DNA from: Pelagibius sp. Alg239-R121 | Lineage (GTDB): Bacteria; Pseudomonadota; Alphaproteobacteria; Kiloniellales; Kiloniellaceae | DNA: 64,000 nucleotides | NCBI RefSeq assembly: GCF_947331435.1 | Contig: NZ_CAMZOF010000007.1 | Span: forward strand, 124,001 to 188,000 | Direction: 5' to 3' | Shown: positions 44,360-52,595 of the stretch, one piece after another | Layout of the letters: every line of letters begins with the position of its first letter | How positions within the stretch are numbered: the first letter of the stretch is position 1 | Notes under the pieces: model-generated | The model's database searches: none | Seen by the model: only the letters and a program-made list of their open reading frames with translations | What the model was told of the DNA's origin: nothing | Position numbers and translations under genes: made by a program

Positions 44360-45616
44360 ATGCTTGGATCCAACGAAAACCTTATCCACGACGTCCGCGC
44401 GAAGTTTGCGCATGTGGATAGCTGCCCATACCAGGGGACACGAGTGTTCTTTGAGAATGCCGGCGGTGCTCTGACCTTGAATTCCGTGGCCGAGAAGTCG
44501 CAGGAAATGGCGGCGATTCCGGACAATCAGGGGCGCGACAATCCGGCGGCCCATGAGCTGGTCCGGATTATCGCCAAGGCCAAGGACGACACAAAGCTGT
44601 TTTTCAATGCTTCGGGCGGTCAGGTTTTCGTGGGCGAGAGTGGCACGGAACTGCTTTTCCGTTTAATCAGCGCTGCCATACTGGGCGCCGAAAAGGGCGG
44701 CATTGTTTTGGGCAGCACACTGGAGCATCCGGCCTCGCGCAGCGCCTGCATCCGCTGGGCCGATATCGCCGGCAAGGACTATGTCAGCGTACCGCATAAT
44801 GCGGAAACCGGATCGGTGACGGCCGAAGACTACTTGCCACACATCAGCCCAGACACCCGGGTGGCGACCATTCTGCACACCTCACCGGTCAGCGGCATGG
44901 CGGTGGATGTCGGTGCGATCGCGAAGGCAATCCGAAACGTTGCACCGGACTGCTATATCATTATCGACGGCATCCAGCATGCGGCGCATGGTGGCATCGA
45001 TATCGATTCCTACGGCATCGATGGATATGTGATCTCGCCCTACAAGGCCTTCTCGCGTCACGGCTATGGTCTTGCCTGGATCTCGGACCGCTTTACCCAG
45101 CTGCCGCATGACGGTCTGATTGGTGCGCCGCAGGCGCAGTGGGAGCTCGGAACACGGGACACCGGAGCCTACGCGACCTTTTCGGAGGTCGTGGCCTATT
45201 TTGAATGGCTGGGCAGCCAGGTGACCGATTCAACCGACCGCCGCGCGCGAATTGAAGCGGCGGGGAAGGCGATCCATGCTCACGAAAAGGACCTCACCGA
45301 CGCCATGCTTTTTGGCATTGGGAATCTCAAAGGCTTGACTGAAATGCCCGAAGTCGGCGTTCTCTGCGGTGCTGAAAATCCTCTGCGCGAGGGATTGGTC
45401 TCCATGACCGTAAAGGGAATGGACGCAGAGACACTGGTTTCGGCGCTACGTGAGCGCGGCATCCGGGTTCATGCCCGCAAGGCGGATCACTACTCGGCAA
45501 ACATTCTCACACCTCTCGGTCTCGAAGACTGCGTCAGAGTGTCGATGTGCCACTACAACAGCGAGCAGGAAGTCGCGCAATTCCTGACTGCAATGCAGGA
45601 AATTGTTGCGCTGTAA
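44360..45616 (+). CDS. Class V aminotransferase / cysteine-desulfurase-like PLP enzyme
   Basis: This 418-residue fold-type I enzyme has the PLP Lys in SPYKAFSRHGYGLAW (about residue 245), the cofactor Asp-Gln region IIDGIQHAAHGGID, and a substrate-side TRVFFENAGGALTLNSVAE at the N-terminus. This matches cysteine desulfurase-like (SufS/CsdA and kynureninase-like) aminotransferases, yet no sulfur-transfer partners are near. I chose ATG 44360 because AAGGAAAAG precedes it. The gene is divergent from LysR, so it probably has a catabolic role on an amino acid induced by that regulator. The substrate is open. Confidence 0.85.
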   Translation: MLGSNENLIHDVRAKFAHVDSCPYQGTRVFFENAGGALTLNSVAEKSQEMAAIPDNQGRDNPAAHELVRIIAKAKDDTKLFFNASGGQVFVGESGTELLFRLISAAILGAEKGGIVLGSTLEHPASRSACIRWADIAGKDYVSVPHNAETGSVTAEDYLPHISPDTRVATILHTSPVSGMAVDVGAIAKAIRNVAPDCYIIIDGIQHAAHGGIDIDSYGIDGYVISPYKAFSRHGYGLAWISDRFTQLPHDGLIGAPQAQWELGTRDTGAYATFSEVVAYFEWLGSQVTDSTDRRARIEAAGKAIHAHEKDLTDAMLFGIGNLKGLTEMPEVGVLCGAENPLREGLVSMTVKGMDAETLVSALRERGIRVHARKADHYSANILTPLGLEDCVRVSMCHYNSEQEVAQFLTAMQEIVAL

Positions 45617-45732: not shown

Positions 45733-45764
45733 TTGAAATTTAACGCCTGTCGTGTATATTCACG
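45733..45764 (+). promoter_or_regulatory. marR promoter with MarR palindrome (45751-45764)
   Basis: TTGAAA (45733-45738) and TATATT (45755-45760) are 16 bp apart. The palindrome CGTG-TATATT-CACG covers the -10. The predicted transcription start falls at or one base before the ATG at 45767, so the marR mRNA may be leaderless. Confidence 0.6.
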
Positions 45765-45766
45765 TT

Positions 45767-46228
45767 ATGAGCAACGAACGCACAAAACTGGACCTGAAGG
45801 CAGCCGCAAGAGAGGCGAGTCAGAGTTGTGCCTGTCTCAAGGTGCGACAGGCATCCCGGATGATCACCAAGACCTATGAAGAGGCTTTGCGCCCAACCGG
45901 CCTAAAGGCGACGCAATACACGATGCTGTCGGCGGCCACGCTGGCTGACGGGGCTGTTTCGCTGACCGACCTGGCGGAGGCGCTGGGAATGGATCGCAGT
46001 ACCTTCAGCCGTAACCTTGGTCCGCTGGAACGTCAGGGACTGGTCGAGCTCACGGACGATGGCTACGGACGCGCCCGAAGCGTCAAGCTGACCGAAGCAG
46101 GCGCTAAACTCTACGCGCAGGCCGTCCCGCTCTGGCAGAGTGCCCAAAGAGATTTACGAACAGCCCTTGGCGAAGAGGGTTGGCAGGCATTCCACACACA
46201 GATGTCATCGGCGGCAAATTACGCCTGA
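45767..46228 (+). CDS. MarR family regulator with an OhrR-position Cys pair
   Basis: This 153-residue repressor has a MarR winged helix (VSLTDLAEALGMDRSTFSRNLGPLERQGLVEL and the basic wing DDGYGRARSVKLTEAG). Its N-terminal helix carries CAC at residues 21 and 23 in SCACLKVRQASRMITKTYEEAL, which lines up by eye with the peroxide-sensing Cys of OhrR, so thiol sensing is possible. The start ATG lacks a Shine-Dalgarno because the operator lies directly before it; GTG 45752 is the alternative. It precedes the RND-fusion and DUF1302 genes, and the same palindrome lies in front of both units. Confidence 0.88.
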   Translation: MSNERTKLDLKAAAREASQSCACLKVRQASRMITKTYEEALRPTGLKATQYTMLSAATLADGAVSLTDLAEALGMDRSTFSRNLGPLERQGLVELTDDGYGRARSVKLTEAGAKLYAQAVPLWQSAQRDLRTALGEEGWQAFHTQMSSAANYA

Positions 46229-46288: not shown

Positions 46289-46302
46289 CGTGTATATACA
46301 CG
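46289..46302 (+). promoter_or_regulatory. MarR palindrome before the RND-fusion gene
   Basis: CGTGTATATACACG is a perfect 14-bp palindrome matching the marR site in 13 of 14 bases. A TATAAC at 46284-46289 may be the -10, so bound MarR would block this promoter. Confidence 0.65.
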
Positions 46303-46343: not shown

Positions 46344-49300
46344 ATGATTAGAGAAAACGCATTTGCTAGACGGTTTTTTATGGCCGTGACCGCTTTTCCC
46401 AAAACGGTTCTTTTCTTCAGTTTTCTGGCGATCCTGGGTGCCGCTGCATTCCTGCCTCTGCTGAACAAGGATACGACTCCGGACGCCTTCATCGCTGCCG
46501 ACAATCCCGCGGTGATCTACCGCGACAAAGTGAAAGAAATCTTCGGCCTGGACGACCCCTTCGTTGTGGCTGTGATCGACCGGCGGGAGCGCGGCATTTA
46601 CAATCCGGTGACACTCGGACTGGTGCAGGATCTTTCCGAGCAGCTTGGGAAACTGCGGAATGTCGACCCGGATCGGGTCACCAGCCTTGCGACCGAGAGC
46701 AACATCGTCGGAACTGAAGACGGTATGGAGGTCGATGATTTTTATGAGCTCGGGACAGGCCGCAGTCTCGACCCCGCAGCGCTGAAGGCTGCGATCGAAG
46801 ATTTCCCGCTCTATCAGGGCGCTTTGGTTGCCAGGGACGGCAGCGCGACACTGATCGTGGCCGAGGTCATCGACCATACCTTAAGCCAGTCTACTTATGA
46901 CGAGATCCGCGCGATCGTCGACGCAAGTATCCTGCCGGAGGGTGTGGAGGTTCACGTGGCGGGCGAGGGGGCGATCTCTGGCTTCCTGGGAACCTACATC
47001 GACAATGACGCGACACGCCTGAATCCGCTGACGGCCGTGGTGATTACCCTGGTCCTTGTGGTGGCGTTCCGGACCTTCGCCGGCGCGCTTCTGCCCAACA
47101 TAATCGTGCTCGCTACGGCGGCGGCGGCGTTGGGGCTGATGGCCGCGTTCGGGGTTTCCTTCTTCGTCATTACGAACGGGCTGTTACCGATCCTGATCGG
47201 CATCGCGGTGGCGGACTCCATCCATGTGCTGAGCGATTACTACGAACTGGCCGTCACGCATCCCGAACTCAGCCGCCGCGAAGTGATCGTACGGGCGATG
47301 CAGCGGATGTACCGGCCCATCACCCTGACCACGCTGACGACGATCGCCGGCTTCATGGGCCTTTTCATCGGCGCCGAAATGCCACCGATGAAATACTTCG
47401 GCCTCTTTGCAGCGATCGGGGTTACGGCAGCCTGGTTCTATACCATCCTCGTTCTGCCGGCGGCGGTTACGCTCTTCAAGGTGAAGCCAAGCAACGCCTT
47501 CGCTCTCAATAAATCAACCGACGTCTATGGCCGTTTGATGACGCGCTTTGGCCATATTGTTCTTCGGCACCCGCGGACCGTGGTCGCCGTCGTTGCCGCT
47601 GTTGCGATTACCGGTGCTGTCGGCGCTTCCAGGGTGATTGTGGAGGAGTCGCAGATCGAAAACTTTCAACGCGATGAGCCGATTTACCTCGCCGACCAGG
47701 TTATGAACCAGGTGTTCGACGGCACGAACTACATCGACATGGTGGTCGAAACGCCCAACCGGGAAGACCTTTTCAAGCCGGATAATCTGGCACGGATCGA
47801 GGCACTCCAACGTTACGCCGAGACCCTCGACGGCGTGCAGGGCTCGACCTCCGTCGTTGACTACATCAAGCAGATGCATAAGGCGGTCAATGAGAATCGG
47901 CAGGAGTTTTATAGCATTCCGGACGATGACTTCCTGATCGCGCAGCTGTTCCTGCTCTATTCTACCTCGGCCAATCCAACCGACTTCGAAGAAGAGGTCG
48001 ACTACGACTATCGGCGTGCCAACATCCGGCTCAACCTGAACAGCAGCCTGTACCGCAGCAATCGCGAGGTGATTGCCGCGCTGGAAGATTACGTTGCGAA
48101 AGAGTTCATCGACGGCGGCATGACAGTCAATCTGTCGGGGCGTGTCTATGTGAACTTCCATTGGCTGAACACCATCGGTGACAACCACCTGCGCAGCCTG
48201 ACGATCTCGCTGGTGCTGGTTTGGCTGATGGCGTCGCTGGTGTTCCGTTCGGCACTGGCGGGTGCCTTTGCCCTTATCCCCGTCGGGATGTCGATCCTGC
48301 TGATCTATGCGGTGATGGGTTTCAGCGGGATCTGGTTGGGCGTCGGGACCTCGATGTTTGCCGCAATCGCCATCGGTCTCGGTATCGACTTTTCCATCCA
48401 TACGATCGATCGCATGAAGGAGTTAGCCATGACGGGTTCAGGTTCGTTCGACGAGCGCATCGCGCCGCTATTTCCCTCCACCGGCCGGGCATTGTTCTTC
48501 AACTTCGCTGCCATCGGCTTGGGTTTCGCCGTGCTCACCACCAGCGAGGTTCCGCCGTTGCTGAAGTTCGGTGTGCTGGTCGGCATCGCTGTCGCTGCCG
48601 CTTTCATCGCCAGCATGGCGATCATGCCTGCACTCGCGAAGCTATTGAAACCCCGTTTCATCTGGCCTGAACAGGCACCTCACAGCGATGCTGTGGGCTT
48701 GAAGCCTTCAAGCGTCAAAGCTGCGGTTGCAGCAATTGCCATGACAGGGATTGCCTTGTTGGCGGTTGCTGGGAAGGCGGATGCGGAAGACTTACCCGAC
48801 GGTCGGGAAATCATGCAGCGGGTTGTCGACCGCGACGAGGGTGAGTGGGTGACGCGCACGCTGATCATGGAGATGACCGACCGCAGCGGCACGACCCGCA
48901 AAAGAGAGACGGCAGCCTTCCGGCGCTACTACGGTCAGGAAAAGCGTACGGTCATGTTTTACAAGTCGCCTACCAACGTAAAGGGTACCGGATTTCTGAC
49001 CTACGACTACCCGGAAGCCGATAAGGATGACGATCAGTGGCTCTATCTGCCGGCGTTGCGCAAGGTGCGCCGTATCTCGGCATCGGACCGGGGCGACTAT
49101 TTCCTCGGCACTGATCTGACCTACGAGGACATGAAAAAGGAAAACAAGGTCGCCCTTGAGGACTATGATTTCACGACTATCGGTCAAGAAAAAGTAGACG
49201 GCCACACGACCTTTATTGTCGAGGGTGTGCCCGTTAGTGAAGAAATCGCGAATGAACTCGGGTATAGTAAAGCCGTGTGGCGAGTCGACTCGGCGATTTG

Positions 49301-49523
49301 GATCTCCCGCGAGGCGGAGATGTGGGATGTAAACGGTAATCCGCTGAAGACGATCCGCTCGACGGAGATTGAGGCGGTCGACGGGATTTGGACGGTGCAT
49401 CGCATTCATGTGGAGAATCACAAGACGAGACACCAGACGCTCTTCCGCTTCGGCGACATCGACTACAAATCGGAAATCAAAGACAAGGTATTCAAGACAC
49501 GGAATCTGAAACGGGGGCTGTAA
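46344..49523 (+). CDS. RND/MMPL-type transporter fused to a LolA-like outer-membrane lipoprotein-sorting domain
   Basis: This 1059-residue protein joins two parts usually encoded separately. Residues 1-780 form an RND permease: a first membrane segment at about 20-40, a large periplasmic loop, then two membrane blocks with Asp-containing motifs LIGIAVADSIHVLSDYYE (near 290) and AIAIGLGIDFSIHTIDRMKE (near 682). Residues 793-814 (AAVAAIAMTGIALLAVAGKADA) look like a signal peptide ending in a peptidase site. Residues 815-1059 match the LolA-like outer-membrane lipoprotein-sorting family (GREIMQRVVDRDEGEWVTRT, FLTYDYPEADKDDDQWLYLP). The ATG follows GGAGCGG; a GTG at 46290 lies in the MarR palindrome. 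It probably moves a lipid or hydrophobic compound to the DUF1302 protein. Confidence 0.9.
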   Translation: MIRENAFARRFFMAVTAFPKTVLFFSFLAILGAAAFLPLLNKDTTPDAFIAADNPAVIYRDKVKEIFGLDDPFVVAVIDRRERGIYNPVTLGLVQDLSEQLGKLRNVDPDRVTSLATESNIVGTEDGMEVDDFYELGTGRSLDPAALKAAIEDFPLYQGALVARDGSATLIVAEVIDHTLSQSTYDEIRAIVDASILPEGVEVHVAGEGAISGFLGTYIDNDATRLNPLTAVVITLVLVVAFRTFAGALLPNIIVLATAAAALGLMAAFGVSFFVITNGLLPILIGIAVADSIHVLSDYYELAVTHPELSRREVIVRAMQRMYRPITLTTLTTIAGFMGLFIGAEMPPMKYFGLFAAIGVTAAWFYTILVLPAAVTLFKVKPSNAFALNKSTDVYGRLMTRFGHIVLRHPRTVVAVVAAVAITGAVGASRVIVEESQIENFQRDEPIYLADQVMNQVFDGTNYIDMVVETPNREDLFKPDNLARIEALQRYAETLDGVQGSTSVVDYIKQMHKAVNENRQEFYSIPDDDFLIAQLFLLYSTSANPTDFEEEVDYDYRRANIRLNLNSSLYRSNREVIAALEDYVAKEFIDGGMTVNLSGRVYVNFHWLNTIGDNHLRSLTISLVLVWLMASLVFRSALAGAFALIPVGMSILLIYAVMGFSGIWLGVGTSMFAAIAIGLGIDFSIHTIDRMKELAMTGSGSFDERIAPLFPSTGRALFFNFAAIGLGFAVLTTSEVPPLLKFGVLVGIAVAAAFIASMAIMPALAKLLKPRFIWPEQAPHSDAVGLKPSSVKAAVAAIAMTGIALLAVAGKADAEDLPDGREIMQRVVDRDEGEWVTRTLIMEMTDRSGTTRKRETAAFRRYYGQEKRTVMFYKSPTNVKGTGFLTYDYPEADKDDDQWLYLPALRKVRRISASDRGDYFLGTDLTYEDMKKENKVALEDYDFTTIGQEKVDGHTTFIVEGVPVSEEIANELGYSKAVWRVDSAIWISREAEMWDVNGNPLKTIRSTEIEAVDGIWTVHRIHVENHKTRHQTLFRFGDIDYKSEIKDKVFKTRNLKRGL

Positions 49524-50864
49524 ATGCGGGGGAATCCGAGAGGATGTTTTAGAACGCCTCTCATCATGATCTGCTGTTTCGTCCAGCCGGCTCTGGTCTC
49601 TGCCGAAAACCTGCTGGACGAAGCAGAATTTTCAGCACTTTTGGAGACGCGCTTCGGATGGGAAACAGAGCGCGACGAGCTGCAATTCGGTGAGGCCGTC
49701 TTCACGCCGGAAGTCAACATGCGCCTCGGCGAGAGCGTGAAGCTGAATGGCATTTTCAGGTTTCGCGGCGACACAGAAGACCGGCTGGAACCCGGCCGTC
49801 CGTCGGAGGATAACCGGGATGCCATCTCAGAACGCGCGTTCGTCGGCGATGACGTCGACATCGAACTGCGTGAACTCTATCTGGATATCGATTTAGAAGA
49901 CGCCTTTGTGCGGCTGGGCAAACAGCAGGTGGTCTGGGGAGAGGCCGACGGACTGAAGGTCCTGGATGTCATCAATCCGCAGTCCTTTCGCGAGTTCATC
50001 CTGCCCGAGTTCGAGGATTCGCGCATTCCCCTCTGGACGGTAAATGCCGAGATTCCCGTGGGCGAAGACAGCCTGGTTCAGCTGCTCTGGATTCCCGATC
50101 AGACTTACAATGACATTCCCGACTCTGATGCTGCCTTTGCCTTCTCTTCGCCGCGGCTTGTGCCGCGATTGCCGGCCGGTGTAACCGTCCTCAGCACCGA
50201 ATTCGACCGGCCAAACAGTTTCGTCGAAGACTCAGATGCCGGTGCGCGCTTTACAACCTTTCTGGACGGCTGGGAACTTTCAGCAAATTACTTTTTTCAC
50301 TACAGCGACACTCCCGTCACGCGACGGCGTTTGCTTCCCGGCGGTGTCGCAGTGACGCAAGATTATGAGCGGACGCATCTGCTGGGCGGAAGCTTCAATA
50401 ACGCGTTCGATGACTGGGTGGTGCGCGGCGAAGTCGGTTATTCGACCGATCGCTTTTTTATCACTGAAGACGCTGGCGACAGCGATGGTGTCGTGAAATC
50501 AGGCGAGGTGAGTTATGTTCTGGGGCTCGATTACCAGGGGATCACCGATACCTTTCTCAGTGCTCAGCTCTTTCAGTCTTTCATCGCCGACCACGAGGAC
50601 GGAATTGTTCAGGATCAGGTCGAAACCTCCGCAACTTTCCTGGTCGAACGCACCTTCGAGAACGAGACCATCAAACTGAGCCTGCTGGTTATTCAGAGCC
50701 TTAACGAAGGAGACGGGGTCGTGCAGGCTGAGTTGGATTATCAGCTCTATAGTGACGTCAATCTTACTCTTGGCGCCGATATCTTCTACGGCGATGAAGA
50801 CGGCCTCTTTGGGCAGTTCCGGAATCGCGACCGGATCACATTCGGCGTGACCGTTGGTTTCTAG
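49524..50864 (+). CDS. DUF1302-type outer-membrane beta-barrel protein
   Basis: This 446-residue protein has an atypical signal peptide (PLIMICCFVQPALVSA, cleavage near residue 27) and a long beta-rich body ending in Phe (RITFGVTVGF), the outer-membrane insertion mark. Internal features such as DDVDIELRELYLDIDLEDAFVRLGKQQVVWGEADGLKVLDVINP (in part) are typical of the DUF1302 family. The start follows the RND-fusion stop with no gap, so the two are one unit, and DUF1302 proteins often accompany RND and LolA-like or DUF1329 proteins in lipid or steroid handling. It ends six bases from the convergent dehydratase gene. Confidence 0.85.
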   Translation: MRGNPRGCFRTPLIMICCFVQPALVSAENLLDEAEFSALLETRFGWETERDELQFGEAVFTPEVNMRLGESVKLNGIFRFRGDTEDRLEPGRPSEDNRDAISERAFVGDDVDIELRELYLDIDLEDAFVRLGKQQVVWGEADGLKVLDVINPQSFREFILPEFEDSRIPLWTVNAEIPVGEDSLVQLLWIPDQTYNDIPDSDAAFAFSSPRLVPRLPAGVTVLSTEFDRPNSFVEDSDAGARFTTFLDGWELSANYFFHYSDTPVTRRRLLPGGVAVTQDYERTHLLGGSFNNAFDDWVVRGEVGYSTDRFFITEDAGDSDGVVKSGEVSYVLGLDYQGITDTFLSAQLFQSFIADHEDGIVQDQVETSATFLVERTFENETIKLSLLVIQSLNEGDGVVQAELDYQLYSDVNLTLGADIFYGDEDGLFGQFRNRDRITFGVTVGF

Positions 50865-50870
50865 TCAGAC

Positions 50871-52595
50871 TTATAGGATGGCGGGTTCGCCAGGATTGGG
50901 GCCATAACTTGATTCGAGAAAATCGAGGTCACATCCTTTGTCGGCTTGCAGAATGTGGCGGGTAAAGACCCAGCCATAACCCCGTTCGAAGCGGGATTCT
51001 GGCGCGGTCCAGTCGGCCCTGCGCCGCACAAGCTCTGCCTCGCCGACCTCCATGTCGATCCGACGAGCGGCCACATCGACAGAGACGATATCGCCCGTTT
51101 GAATGAGTGCCAGGGGGCCGCCAACATGGGCCTCCGGTGCCACATGAAGGACGCAGGCACCGTAGCTGGTGCCGCTCATGCGGGCATCCGAAATCCTCAG
51201 CATGTCGCGCACGCCTTGCTTTAACAACTTTGCCGGGATTGGCAGCATGCCCCACTCCGGCATTCCTGGCCCGCCTTGTGGTCCCGCCCCACGCATCACC
51301 AAAACTGTGTCTTCCGTCACGTCCAACTCAGGATCGTCGATCCGTTCCTTCATTTCTGCATAGTCGTTGAACACCAGCGCCGGCCCGCGATGCTTCAGAA
51401 ACTTCTGGGCACAGGCAGAAGGTTTGATGACGCAGCCGTCCGGCGCCAGGTTCCCGCGCAGTACGGCGAGGGCGCCTTCTGCGTAGAGTGGATTGTCGAG
51501 CGGGCGGATGACGTCGTCATTCCAGACCTTGGCACCTGCGATATCCTCGCCCAGGGTCGCGCCTGATACGGTTGGGGCACTCAGGTCGAGGTGATCGGCG
51601 AGGCGGGTCATCAGTGCGCGGAGTCCGCCGGCATAAAAGAAATCTTCCATCAGATAGCGGTCGCCCGATGGCCGGATGTTGGCGATCACCGGGATTTCCC
51701 GGCTCAAACGGTCGAAGTCTTCAAGGCCGACCTCGATCTTGGCGCGCCGCGCCTGGGCGATGAGATGAATGATGGCGTTGGTCGAGCAGCCCATGGCCAT
51801 GGCCACGACGATGGCGTTTTCAAAAGACGCGCGTGTAAGGATCTGACTGGGGCGCAGGTCGGACTGCACCATCTCGACGACGCGGCGACCGGCGGCGGCA
51901 CACATGCGGATATGGTTGGCGTCAGCGGCAGGGATCGAGGAGGCACCCGATAGAGTCATGCCCAGCGCTTCGGTTGTGCCGGTCATAGTGCTCGCCGTGC
52001 CCATGGTCATGCAGTGGCCATAGGAGCGGGCGATCCCGGCTTCTACGCCTGTCCAGTCGTCCTCGGTAATATTGCCCGCGCGCTTCTCGTCCCAATACTT
52101 CCAAGCGTCCGAACCTGATCCCAAAACCTCTCCACGCCAGTTGCCGCGCAGCATGGGACCGGCGGGAACATAGATCGCAGGAAGATCCATCGAGGTTGCG
52201 CCCAACAAAAGACCTGGTGTGGTCTTGTCGCAACCGCCCATCAAGACCGCGCCGTCGACCGGATGTGAACGCAGCAGCTCCTCGACCTCCATTGCGAGCA
52301 GATTGCGGTAAAGCATTGTGGTTGGCTTTACGAAGTTCTCCGAAAGGGAGAGGGCAGGGAGCTCGATCGGGAAACCGCCCGCCTGGAGTACGCCGCGCCG
52401 GATATCTTCAACCCGGCTTTTGAAGTGCGCATGGCAAGGATTGATGTCGGACCAGGTATTGATGATTGCGATCACCGGCCGCCCAGACCAGTCGTCCGGC
52501 CCATAGCCCATCTGCATGATGCGGGAACGATGGCCAAAACCCCGCAGGTCCTGACTGTCGAACCATCTGGCGCTGCGGAGTGTCCGTTCGGTCAT
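50871..52595 (-). CDS. IlvD/Edd family dehydratase (sugar-acid type, L-arabonate dehydratase-like)
   Basis: This 574-residue iron-sulfur enzyme has the expected Cys residues in SDINPCHAHF, GGCDKTTPGLL and MGCSTNAIIHL, and a C-terminal part GTSYGACVLHVAPEAHVGGPLA. Length and motifs fit aldonate dehydratases (L-arabonate, D-xylonate), which are close to dihydroxy-acid dehydratase IlvD; housekeeping IlvD is usually longer (about 610). It converts a 2,3-dihydroxy acid to a 2-keto-3-deoxy acid. A 203-bp gap separates it from the decarboxylase gene, so it may have its own promoter within the IclR module. Confidence 0.9.
   Translation of the reverse strand: MTERTLRSARWFDSQDLRGFGHRSRIMQMGYGPDDWSGRPVIAIINTWSDINPCHAHFKSRVEDIRRGVLQAGGFPIELPALSLSENFVKPTTMLYRNLLAMEVEELLRSHPVDGAVLMGGCDKTTPGLLLGATSMDLPAIYVPAGPMLRGNWRGEVLGSGSDAWKYWDEKRAGNITEDDWTGVEAGIARSYGHCMTMGTASTMTGTTEALGMTLSGASSIPAADANHIRMCAAAGRRVVEMVQSDLRPSQILTRASFENAIVVAMAMGCSTNAIIHLIAQARRAKIEVGLEDFDRLSREIPVIANIRPSGDRYLMEDFFYAGGLRALMTRLADHLDLSAPTVSGATLGEDIAGAKVWNDDVIRPLDNPLYAEGALAVLRGNLAPDGCVIKPSACAQKFLKHRGPALVFNDYAEMKERIDDPELDVTEDTVLVMRGAGPQGGPGMPEWGMLPIPAKLLKQGVRDMLRISDARMSGTSYGACVLHVAPEAHVGGPLALIQTGDIVSVDVAARRIDMEVGEAELVRRRADWTAPESRFERGYGWVFTRHILQADKGCDLDFLESSYGPNPGEPAIL

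Follow-up and report, generated by a model that had tools for sequence, protein, structure and literature searches.

Environmental bacteria repeatedly carry envelope-spanning machines that combine an RND (resistance-nodulation-division) permease, a LolA/DUF1329-type periplasmic protein and a DUF1302 outer-membrane protein, few of which have been investigated. The nearest characterised system that we found, AmeABCD of Castellaniella defragrans, carries an RND permease, a LolA-superfamily protein (DUF1329) and a DUF1302 protein in one cassette; its deletion is reported to lower monoterpene tolerance and to raise Nile Red accumulation, and efflux of hydrophobic compounds was proposed (PMC6394551). 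Here we describe a related locus in 64,000 nucleotides of Pelagibius sp. Alg239-R121 (contig NZ_CAMZOF010000007.1, positions 124,001 to 188,000; hereafter the window, whose first letter is position 1), where permease and carrier are encoded by one uninterrupted gene and linked by an apparent signal peptide. AmeABCD is described as four separate genes with an additional periplasmic protein, AmeC (PMC6394551), whereas the window locus has no AmeC beside the fusion, contains PF17131 rather than a full DUF1329, and joins pump and carrier. The genes adjoining fusion and barrel, a MarR-family regulator and a convergent dehydratase, place the locus outside the AmeABCD lineage.

Pseudomonas putida contains a comparable system that includes PP_2019, which we take to be an RND transporter. 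This protein has been termed a multidrug efflux transporter, and PP_0765, PP_0766, PP_2018 and PP_2019 are reported to be required for growth on Tween 20; DUF1302, DUF1329, a periplasmic protein and the transporter are tied together there by mutant phenotype and predicted contacts, but are unfused and divided between two loci (PMC10866462). Iron-regulated operons of Bacteroidota are described with an MMPL protein beside an 'outer membrane lipoprotein-sorting protein', as two genes and with ABC subunits as the other partners (PMC10434189), and a Thalassospira plasmid likewise holds the two as adjacent genes. We found no description of the fused form in the literature searched, which mostly did not cover subscription journals and preprints. 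The parts and their partnership are already known; what is new is the fused architecture, which probably splits itself, and how widely it occurs.

The gene runs through 1059 uninterrupted codons from ATG 46344 to TAA 49521-49523, as an earlier sequence-only reading had proposed; the domains and coordinates given there, the signal-peptide-like joint and the A-D-A site also hold up under Pfam, hydropathy and alignment. The frame is open further 5', from GTG 46290, and an AGGAG precedes ATG 46344 at a spacing of 7 nucleotides. Its parts are as follows.

46344..49523, + strand: fusion gene, RND/MMPL permease, apparent internal signal peptide and LolA-like domain; 1059 amino acids plus stop (open reading frame, Pfam)
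46344..48683, + strand: RND permease part, residues 1-780 (Pfam, 12 peaks resembling transmembrane segments)
48675..48788, + strand: joint, residues 778-815 (confidence under 50 and no helix in the structure model)
48714..48770, + strand: hydrophobic core of the joint, residues 791-809, apparent h-region of a signal peptide (13th such peak)
48777..48785, + strand: A-D-A, residues 812-814, predicted signal peptidase I site with the cut after 814 (conserved A812 and A814)
48786..49520, + strand: LolA-like domain (PF17131), residues 815-1059 (Pfam, fold match)

The fusion protein displays 13 hydropathy peaks resembling transmembrane (TM) segments, 12 of them before the joint and the last at 791-809. 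Pfam recognises MMPL in two stretches (best 557-775) and a Sterol-sensing domain at 252-376, and the permease belongs to MMPL/RND (PF03176; 123 bits, cut-off 20.5), retaining the acidic residues of that family in TM4 and TM10 as D291 and D682. Conservation of D291, H294, D682 and H686 extends to 74, 80, 79 and 79 of 80 rows. The top NCBIfam model, HAE3 (TIGR00921), gives 231.9 bits, below its curated cut-off of 351.9, and the permease is not assigned to it. The C-terminal part is a member of LolA_like (PF17131; residues 866-1057, E-value 4.7e-54, 183.3 bits, cut-off 30), and also exceeds the DUF1329 cut-off (37 vs 23.1 bits), over residues 857-950 only.

The joint is apparently the LolA signal peptide retained in frame. 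It ends in GKADA, with EDLPDG following the predicted cut, and in an alignment of six fusions the sole invariant columns between A763 and L817 are A812 and A814, which correspond to -3 and -1 relative to a signal peptidase cut. Across 30 fused rows the joint has a median conservation of 0.23, against 0.60 for the RND part and 0.70 for the LolA part; A814 is its standout residue (conservation 0.87, 26/30 rows), and a post hoc reading of the joints by eye finds Ala at -1 in 29/30 and Ser in one. The flank before the core, on the cytoplasmic side, is net positive in all 30 rows, and the flank after it is net negative in 22. A strict A-x-A motif occurs in 24 of 33 c-regions (the 30 fused rows and three joints of a second fused clade, L136-L138, which terminate in ASA, AQA and AAA), compared with a shuffled mean of 15.3; one of 3000 shuffles reaches this count. 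Scored with a matrix derived from 47 split signal peptides, fused joints lie above 174 in-to-out TM ends from elsewhere in the same proteins (P 1.5e-4, the rows not being independent); L008, L009, L010 and L013, in which the LolA frame or signal region could not be settled, were excluded from the signal-peptide and start tests. A-x-A, positive-inside charge and a hydrophobic core are the sequence features that suggest an internally cleaved polyprotein, and the joint probably inserts as a thirteenth TM segment (TM13) and is then cut by signal peptidase I. The sequence-only reading had offered an extra membrane segment or a cut as alternatives; both are favoured here, one after the other, the cut being the inferred step. 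A comparable arrangement is that of the FbcH cytochrome b/c1 polyprotein of Bradyrhizobium, a polytopic membrane protein with an internal signal peptide and a periplasmic domain, which signal peptidase cuts; FbcH, which our literature search did not find, is a respiratory enzyme of unrelated sequence.

The fusion is not peculiar to the window's genome, contrary to the rarity first supposed. Among the 98 genomes nearest to it, six carry the fusion intact and at full length, namely the window's own genome and five others with 82, 82, 58, 57 and 42% identity, and the 61 genomes of the window's order contain the identical six; a further genome of the same genus (G002) has a split paralogue only. 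A scan of public genomes, from which the best 80 of 525 confirmed relatives were used, contributed 79 loci with both domains (27 fused), and 11 more (6 fused) were chosen from 30 loci of nearby genomes. In these 90 loci the two domains form single open reading frames in 33 and are split in 57, proportions that do not represent a rate, as the 80 public relatives are those closest to a fused query. The components are commonly separate genes, as had been stated. Removal of repeats leaves 30 fused rows; the rows dropped were L065, L075 and L094 (regarded as duplicates of L003, L006 and L008 because their contigs are equally long), L043 (joint identical to L042) and L096 (no LolA hit). Fused loci belong mostly to Gammaproteobacteria (Marinobacter, Marinomonas, Microbulbifer, Pseudohongiella, Porticoccaceae, Oleiphilus) and to Alphaproteobacteria of the window's order. 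The sequence-only reading had named wide occurrence of the fusion with a known function as grounds against its proposal: the wide occurrence is found, the known function is not. Wider samples of 385 genomes of the class and 398 of the phylum (E-value <= 1e-100, two candidates scored per genome, counts therefore lower bounds) yielded long stop-free matches outside the genus in G289, G582 and the contig-cut G550. These constitute the second fused clade, which shares about 30% identity with the window's fusion and has split sister rows in the tree; each member has a barrel-like reading frame downstream, in which DUF1302 is just above the cut-off in L136 and below it in L137. All 60 matching plasmid records are below 60% identity, and in the listed well-covered matches that carry annotation (several do not) the permease and LolA parts are separate features.

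In trees of 80 and 58 rows the fused state is strongly clustered, with at least six label changes (starred branches force five and four); these are quick trees with support from the SH-aLRT (Shimodaira-Hasegawa-like approximate likelihood ratio test) only, in which gain and loss are indistinguishable. The first tree was built without the partial contigs L050, L057, L083, L099, L109 and L110; the second lacks L026 and L140, which yielded no pair. In both trees split rows (L074, L076, L079, L080 and Nitrospira) fall within the window's fused clade, which is expected if both forms yield the same products. Easy interconversion of fused and split forms would fit a precursor yielding the products of the two-gene form, although repeated fusion would look alike. 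The long-branched L006 was not counted as a separate origin: it lies outside the main fused clade in the first tree and inside it, with support 82, in the second. We give an even chance to the broader proposition that these loci represent a widespread, previously undescribed polyprotein class, a 12-TM RND lipid pump and its carrier split by signal peptidase I, in which fusion occurred on two or more occasions and the fused and split forms convert into each other.

The fate of the joint admits several other explanations. We consider it rather unlikely that the signal peptide has become a permanent TM13 in an uncut protein of 13 TM segments, which would anchor the LolA domain to the pump as a stationary receiver in the periplasm. 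A number of observations nevertheless weigh against cleavage: besides the 13 TM-like peaks, the uncharged run in fused joints has a median of 16 compared with 12 in 24 split Pseudomonadota relatives (P 0.001), a drift towards the runs of 17-21 in TM segments; the median matrix score of fused joints (5.2) is below that of split forms left out in turn (7.9), though above control TM ends (2.7), of which TM3 alone scores 4.6 and 27% match or beat the fused median; and the looser motif [AVSTIL]xA is not enriched (30/33 vs 27.4 in shuffles, 374/3000 shuffles reaching it). Because its matrix score is in between and its uncharged run is longer than in split forms, the joint appears from its sequence intermediate between signal peptide and TM segment. 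A permanent TM13, however, sits poorly with the retention of A-x-A in two clades while the rest of the linker drifts, with the nesting of split members in the fused clade, and with the AlphaFold2 model of the fusion, which has no confident TM13 helix: in a model of mean pLDDT (predicted local distance difference test) 89.4 and pTM (predicted template modelling score) 0.81, residues 778-815 are the sole stretch below 50, and without helix, though this may merely mirror a variable alignment there. We infer that cleavage is clearly the likelier of the two fates. Very improbable, in our estimate, is the production of two proteins from one frame by an internal translation start 5' of the core. An in-frame ATG does precede the core in L002, L003 and L004, with a Shine-Dalgarno (SD) energy of -6.9 in L003, but the window's core is preceded just by TTG and GTG codons with weak SD energies (-0.1, -2.0, -0.3), and its sole ATG sits inside the core; in the tested stretch 16 of 29 joints have no ATG and 5 no start codon at all. 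In matched windows an ATG with SD energy <= -6 is found in 2/29 fused joints, 28/47 split LolA starts and 56/760 null windows; for any start codon the counts, 7/29, 29/47 and 130/760, include some fused joints, yet the SD strength of joints is indistinguishable from that of null windows (P 0.32). With no SD excess in fused joints, internal re-initiation was rejected as a general mechanism; single species such as the carrier of L003 could still use it. An artefact of sequencing or assembly, the frameshift that the sequence-only reading had named as refuting, or a decayed fusion, has next to no probability left: the two same-genus genomes G001 and G003 carry the fusion at 82% identity, and the intact single frames come from many genomes and are conserved on either side of the joint.

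The fusion forms one module with a barrel gene, a MarR-family regulator and a palindrome.

49524..50864, + strand: DUF1302 outer-membrane beta-barrel gene, its ATG on the base after the fusion stop codon (Pfam)
45767..46228, + strand: MarR-family regulator gene (Pfam MarR_2, E-value 1.5e-9), with an alternative GTG start at 45752 within a palindrome
45752..45763, no strand: operator-like palindrome GTGTATATTCAC with 1 mismatch, just 5' of the MarR ATG
46290..46301, no strand: perfect 12-bp palindrome GTGTATATACAC, between the MarR gene and the fusion gene

The barrel thus follows without a gap, as originally observed. It is a member of DUF1302 (PF06980; E-value 5.1e-20, 72.4 bits, cut-off 23.2), with profile positions 1-142 of 541 unmatched, and its model (pLDDT 92.0) is mostly beta; Foldseek returns porin-like matches whose TM-score (template modelling score), taken over the barrel's length, is low at about 0.4-0.5. 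In most loci, whether fused (29 of 30) or split (42 of 56), a homologous barrel gene comes directly next (74 of these 86 loci have at least 900 nucleotides downstream). The lone fused exception at the level of BLAST, L046, has a 444-residue reading frame beginning 1 nucleotide downstream. Upstream, a MarR homologue is present in 40 of the 74 loci that have at least 900 nucleotides there. The exact copy of GTGTATATACAC is the only one in the genome of 8,021,677 bases, and a copy with a single mismatch precedes the MarR start; a version within one mismatch lies upstream in 22 of 80 loci, compared with 0.4 in mononucleotide shuffles and none in 64 control regions; the loci with such a palindrome span several phyla, including Nitrospira and a Thermoanaerobaculia genome. 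It is likely to be a MarR operator. Against this assignment speaks the weak co-occurrence of MarR and palindrome (P 0.036): the palindrome is missing at 25 of 40 MarR loci, and of the 34 loci in which no MarR was detected 5 have it.

In fold searches the permease resembles MmpL4/5, NPC1-type proteins and HpnN, and it has weak profile similarity to the hopanoid/sterol transporters HpnN and BstA. The best solved match of the LolA part is LolA3 of Porphyromonas gingivalis (9tp6; 32% identity, TM-score by target 0.90), a protein of like fold that is free in the periplasm and has no assigned function; it is reported to bind LolB only weakly (PMC13103446). The locus does not fit the Lol pathway, its partner being an RND permease and its neighbours MarR and DUF1302 (the search for LolCDE and LolB was confined to the locus), and true lipoprotein sorting was rejected on account of that partner. 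Because of the monoterpene protection by AmeABCD, the P. putida homologues, and the folds of permease and LolA part, we favour by analogy an exporter role, with proton flow driving hydrophobic or amphiphilic compounds out through the envelope. Another direction or cargo, namely import of lipids or fatty-acid esters, or outer-membrane lipid trafficking, seems to us doubtful but worth keeping in view, and is compatible with either fate of the joint. The Tween 20 phenotype of P. putida could signify uptake and to that extent counts against export, and the similarities to HpnN, BstA and NPC1-type proteins are in keeping with lipid cargo. The effects of AmeABCD deletion point the other way, as do the MarR regulator and the TetR, glutathione S-transferase or alpha/beta-hydrolase genes that adjoin some related loci (for each kind, a single member was checked).

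For the export module we propose the following mechanism. The permease would insert with 12 TM segments and both ends inside, and the former LolA signal peptide would then serve as TM13 and direct the LolA domain into the Sec pathway. A cut by signal peptidase I would probably follow residue 814, so that the permease keeps TM13 as a C-terminal stub and free carrier is produced 1:1, delivered at the pump; of the fixed 1:1 trans-envelope path suggested earlier, only the 1:1 synthesis is retained. D291/H294 and D682/H686 presumably carry protons, and by analogy with MmpL proteins proton flow involving D291 and D682 would drive the permease to load a hydrophobic or amphiphilic molecule into the carrier groove, from which the carrier would pass it to the barrel. 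The MarR protein would probably bind GTGTATATACAC and release it when such a compound is present. Taken whole, a MarR-regulated envelope-spanning export module with permease and periplasmic carrier made as one polyprotein is the reading that we find somewhat more probable than its negation. A natural fusion reveals which carrier belongs to which pump and fixes their ratio, and it offers a test case for the docking of LolA-like proteins on pumps, for the cleavage of internal signal peptides behind polytopic proteins, and for the cargo; the genome-unique palindrome is a direct handle on the inducer.

Besides the fusion locus, the window's own genome contains three RND/LolA-type/barrel systems, each with a gene arrangement of its own: a split pair with DUF1302 (L139), a split pair with a barrel-like reading frame that Pfam does not recognise (L141), and an AmeABCD-like set (L140) with DUF1302, DUF1329 and YCF48/PSII_BNR hits and an RND-like reading frame. 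At the locus itself, an L-arabinonate dehydratase gene (50874-52595, - strand; NCBIfam 1069 bits) is convergent to the barrel gene, and a class-V aminotransferase gene (44360-45613, + strand) lies 5' of the MarR gene; both are probably unrelated to the module.

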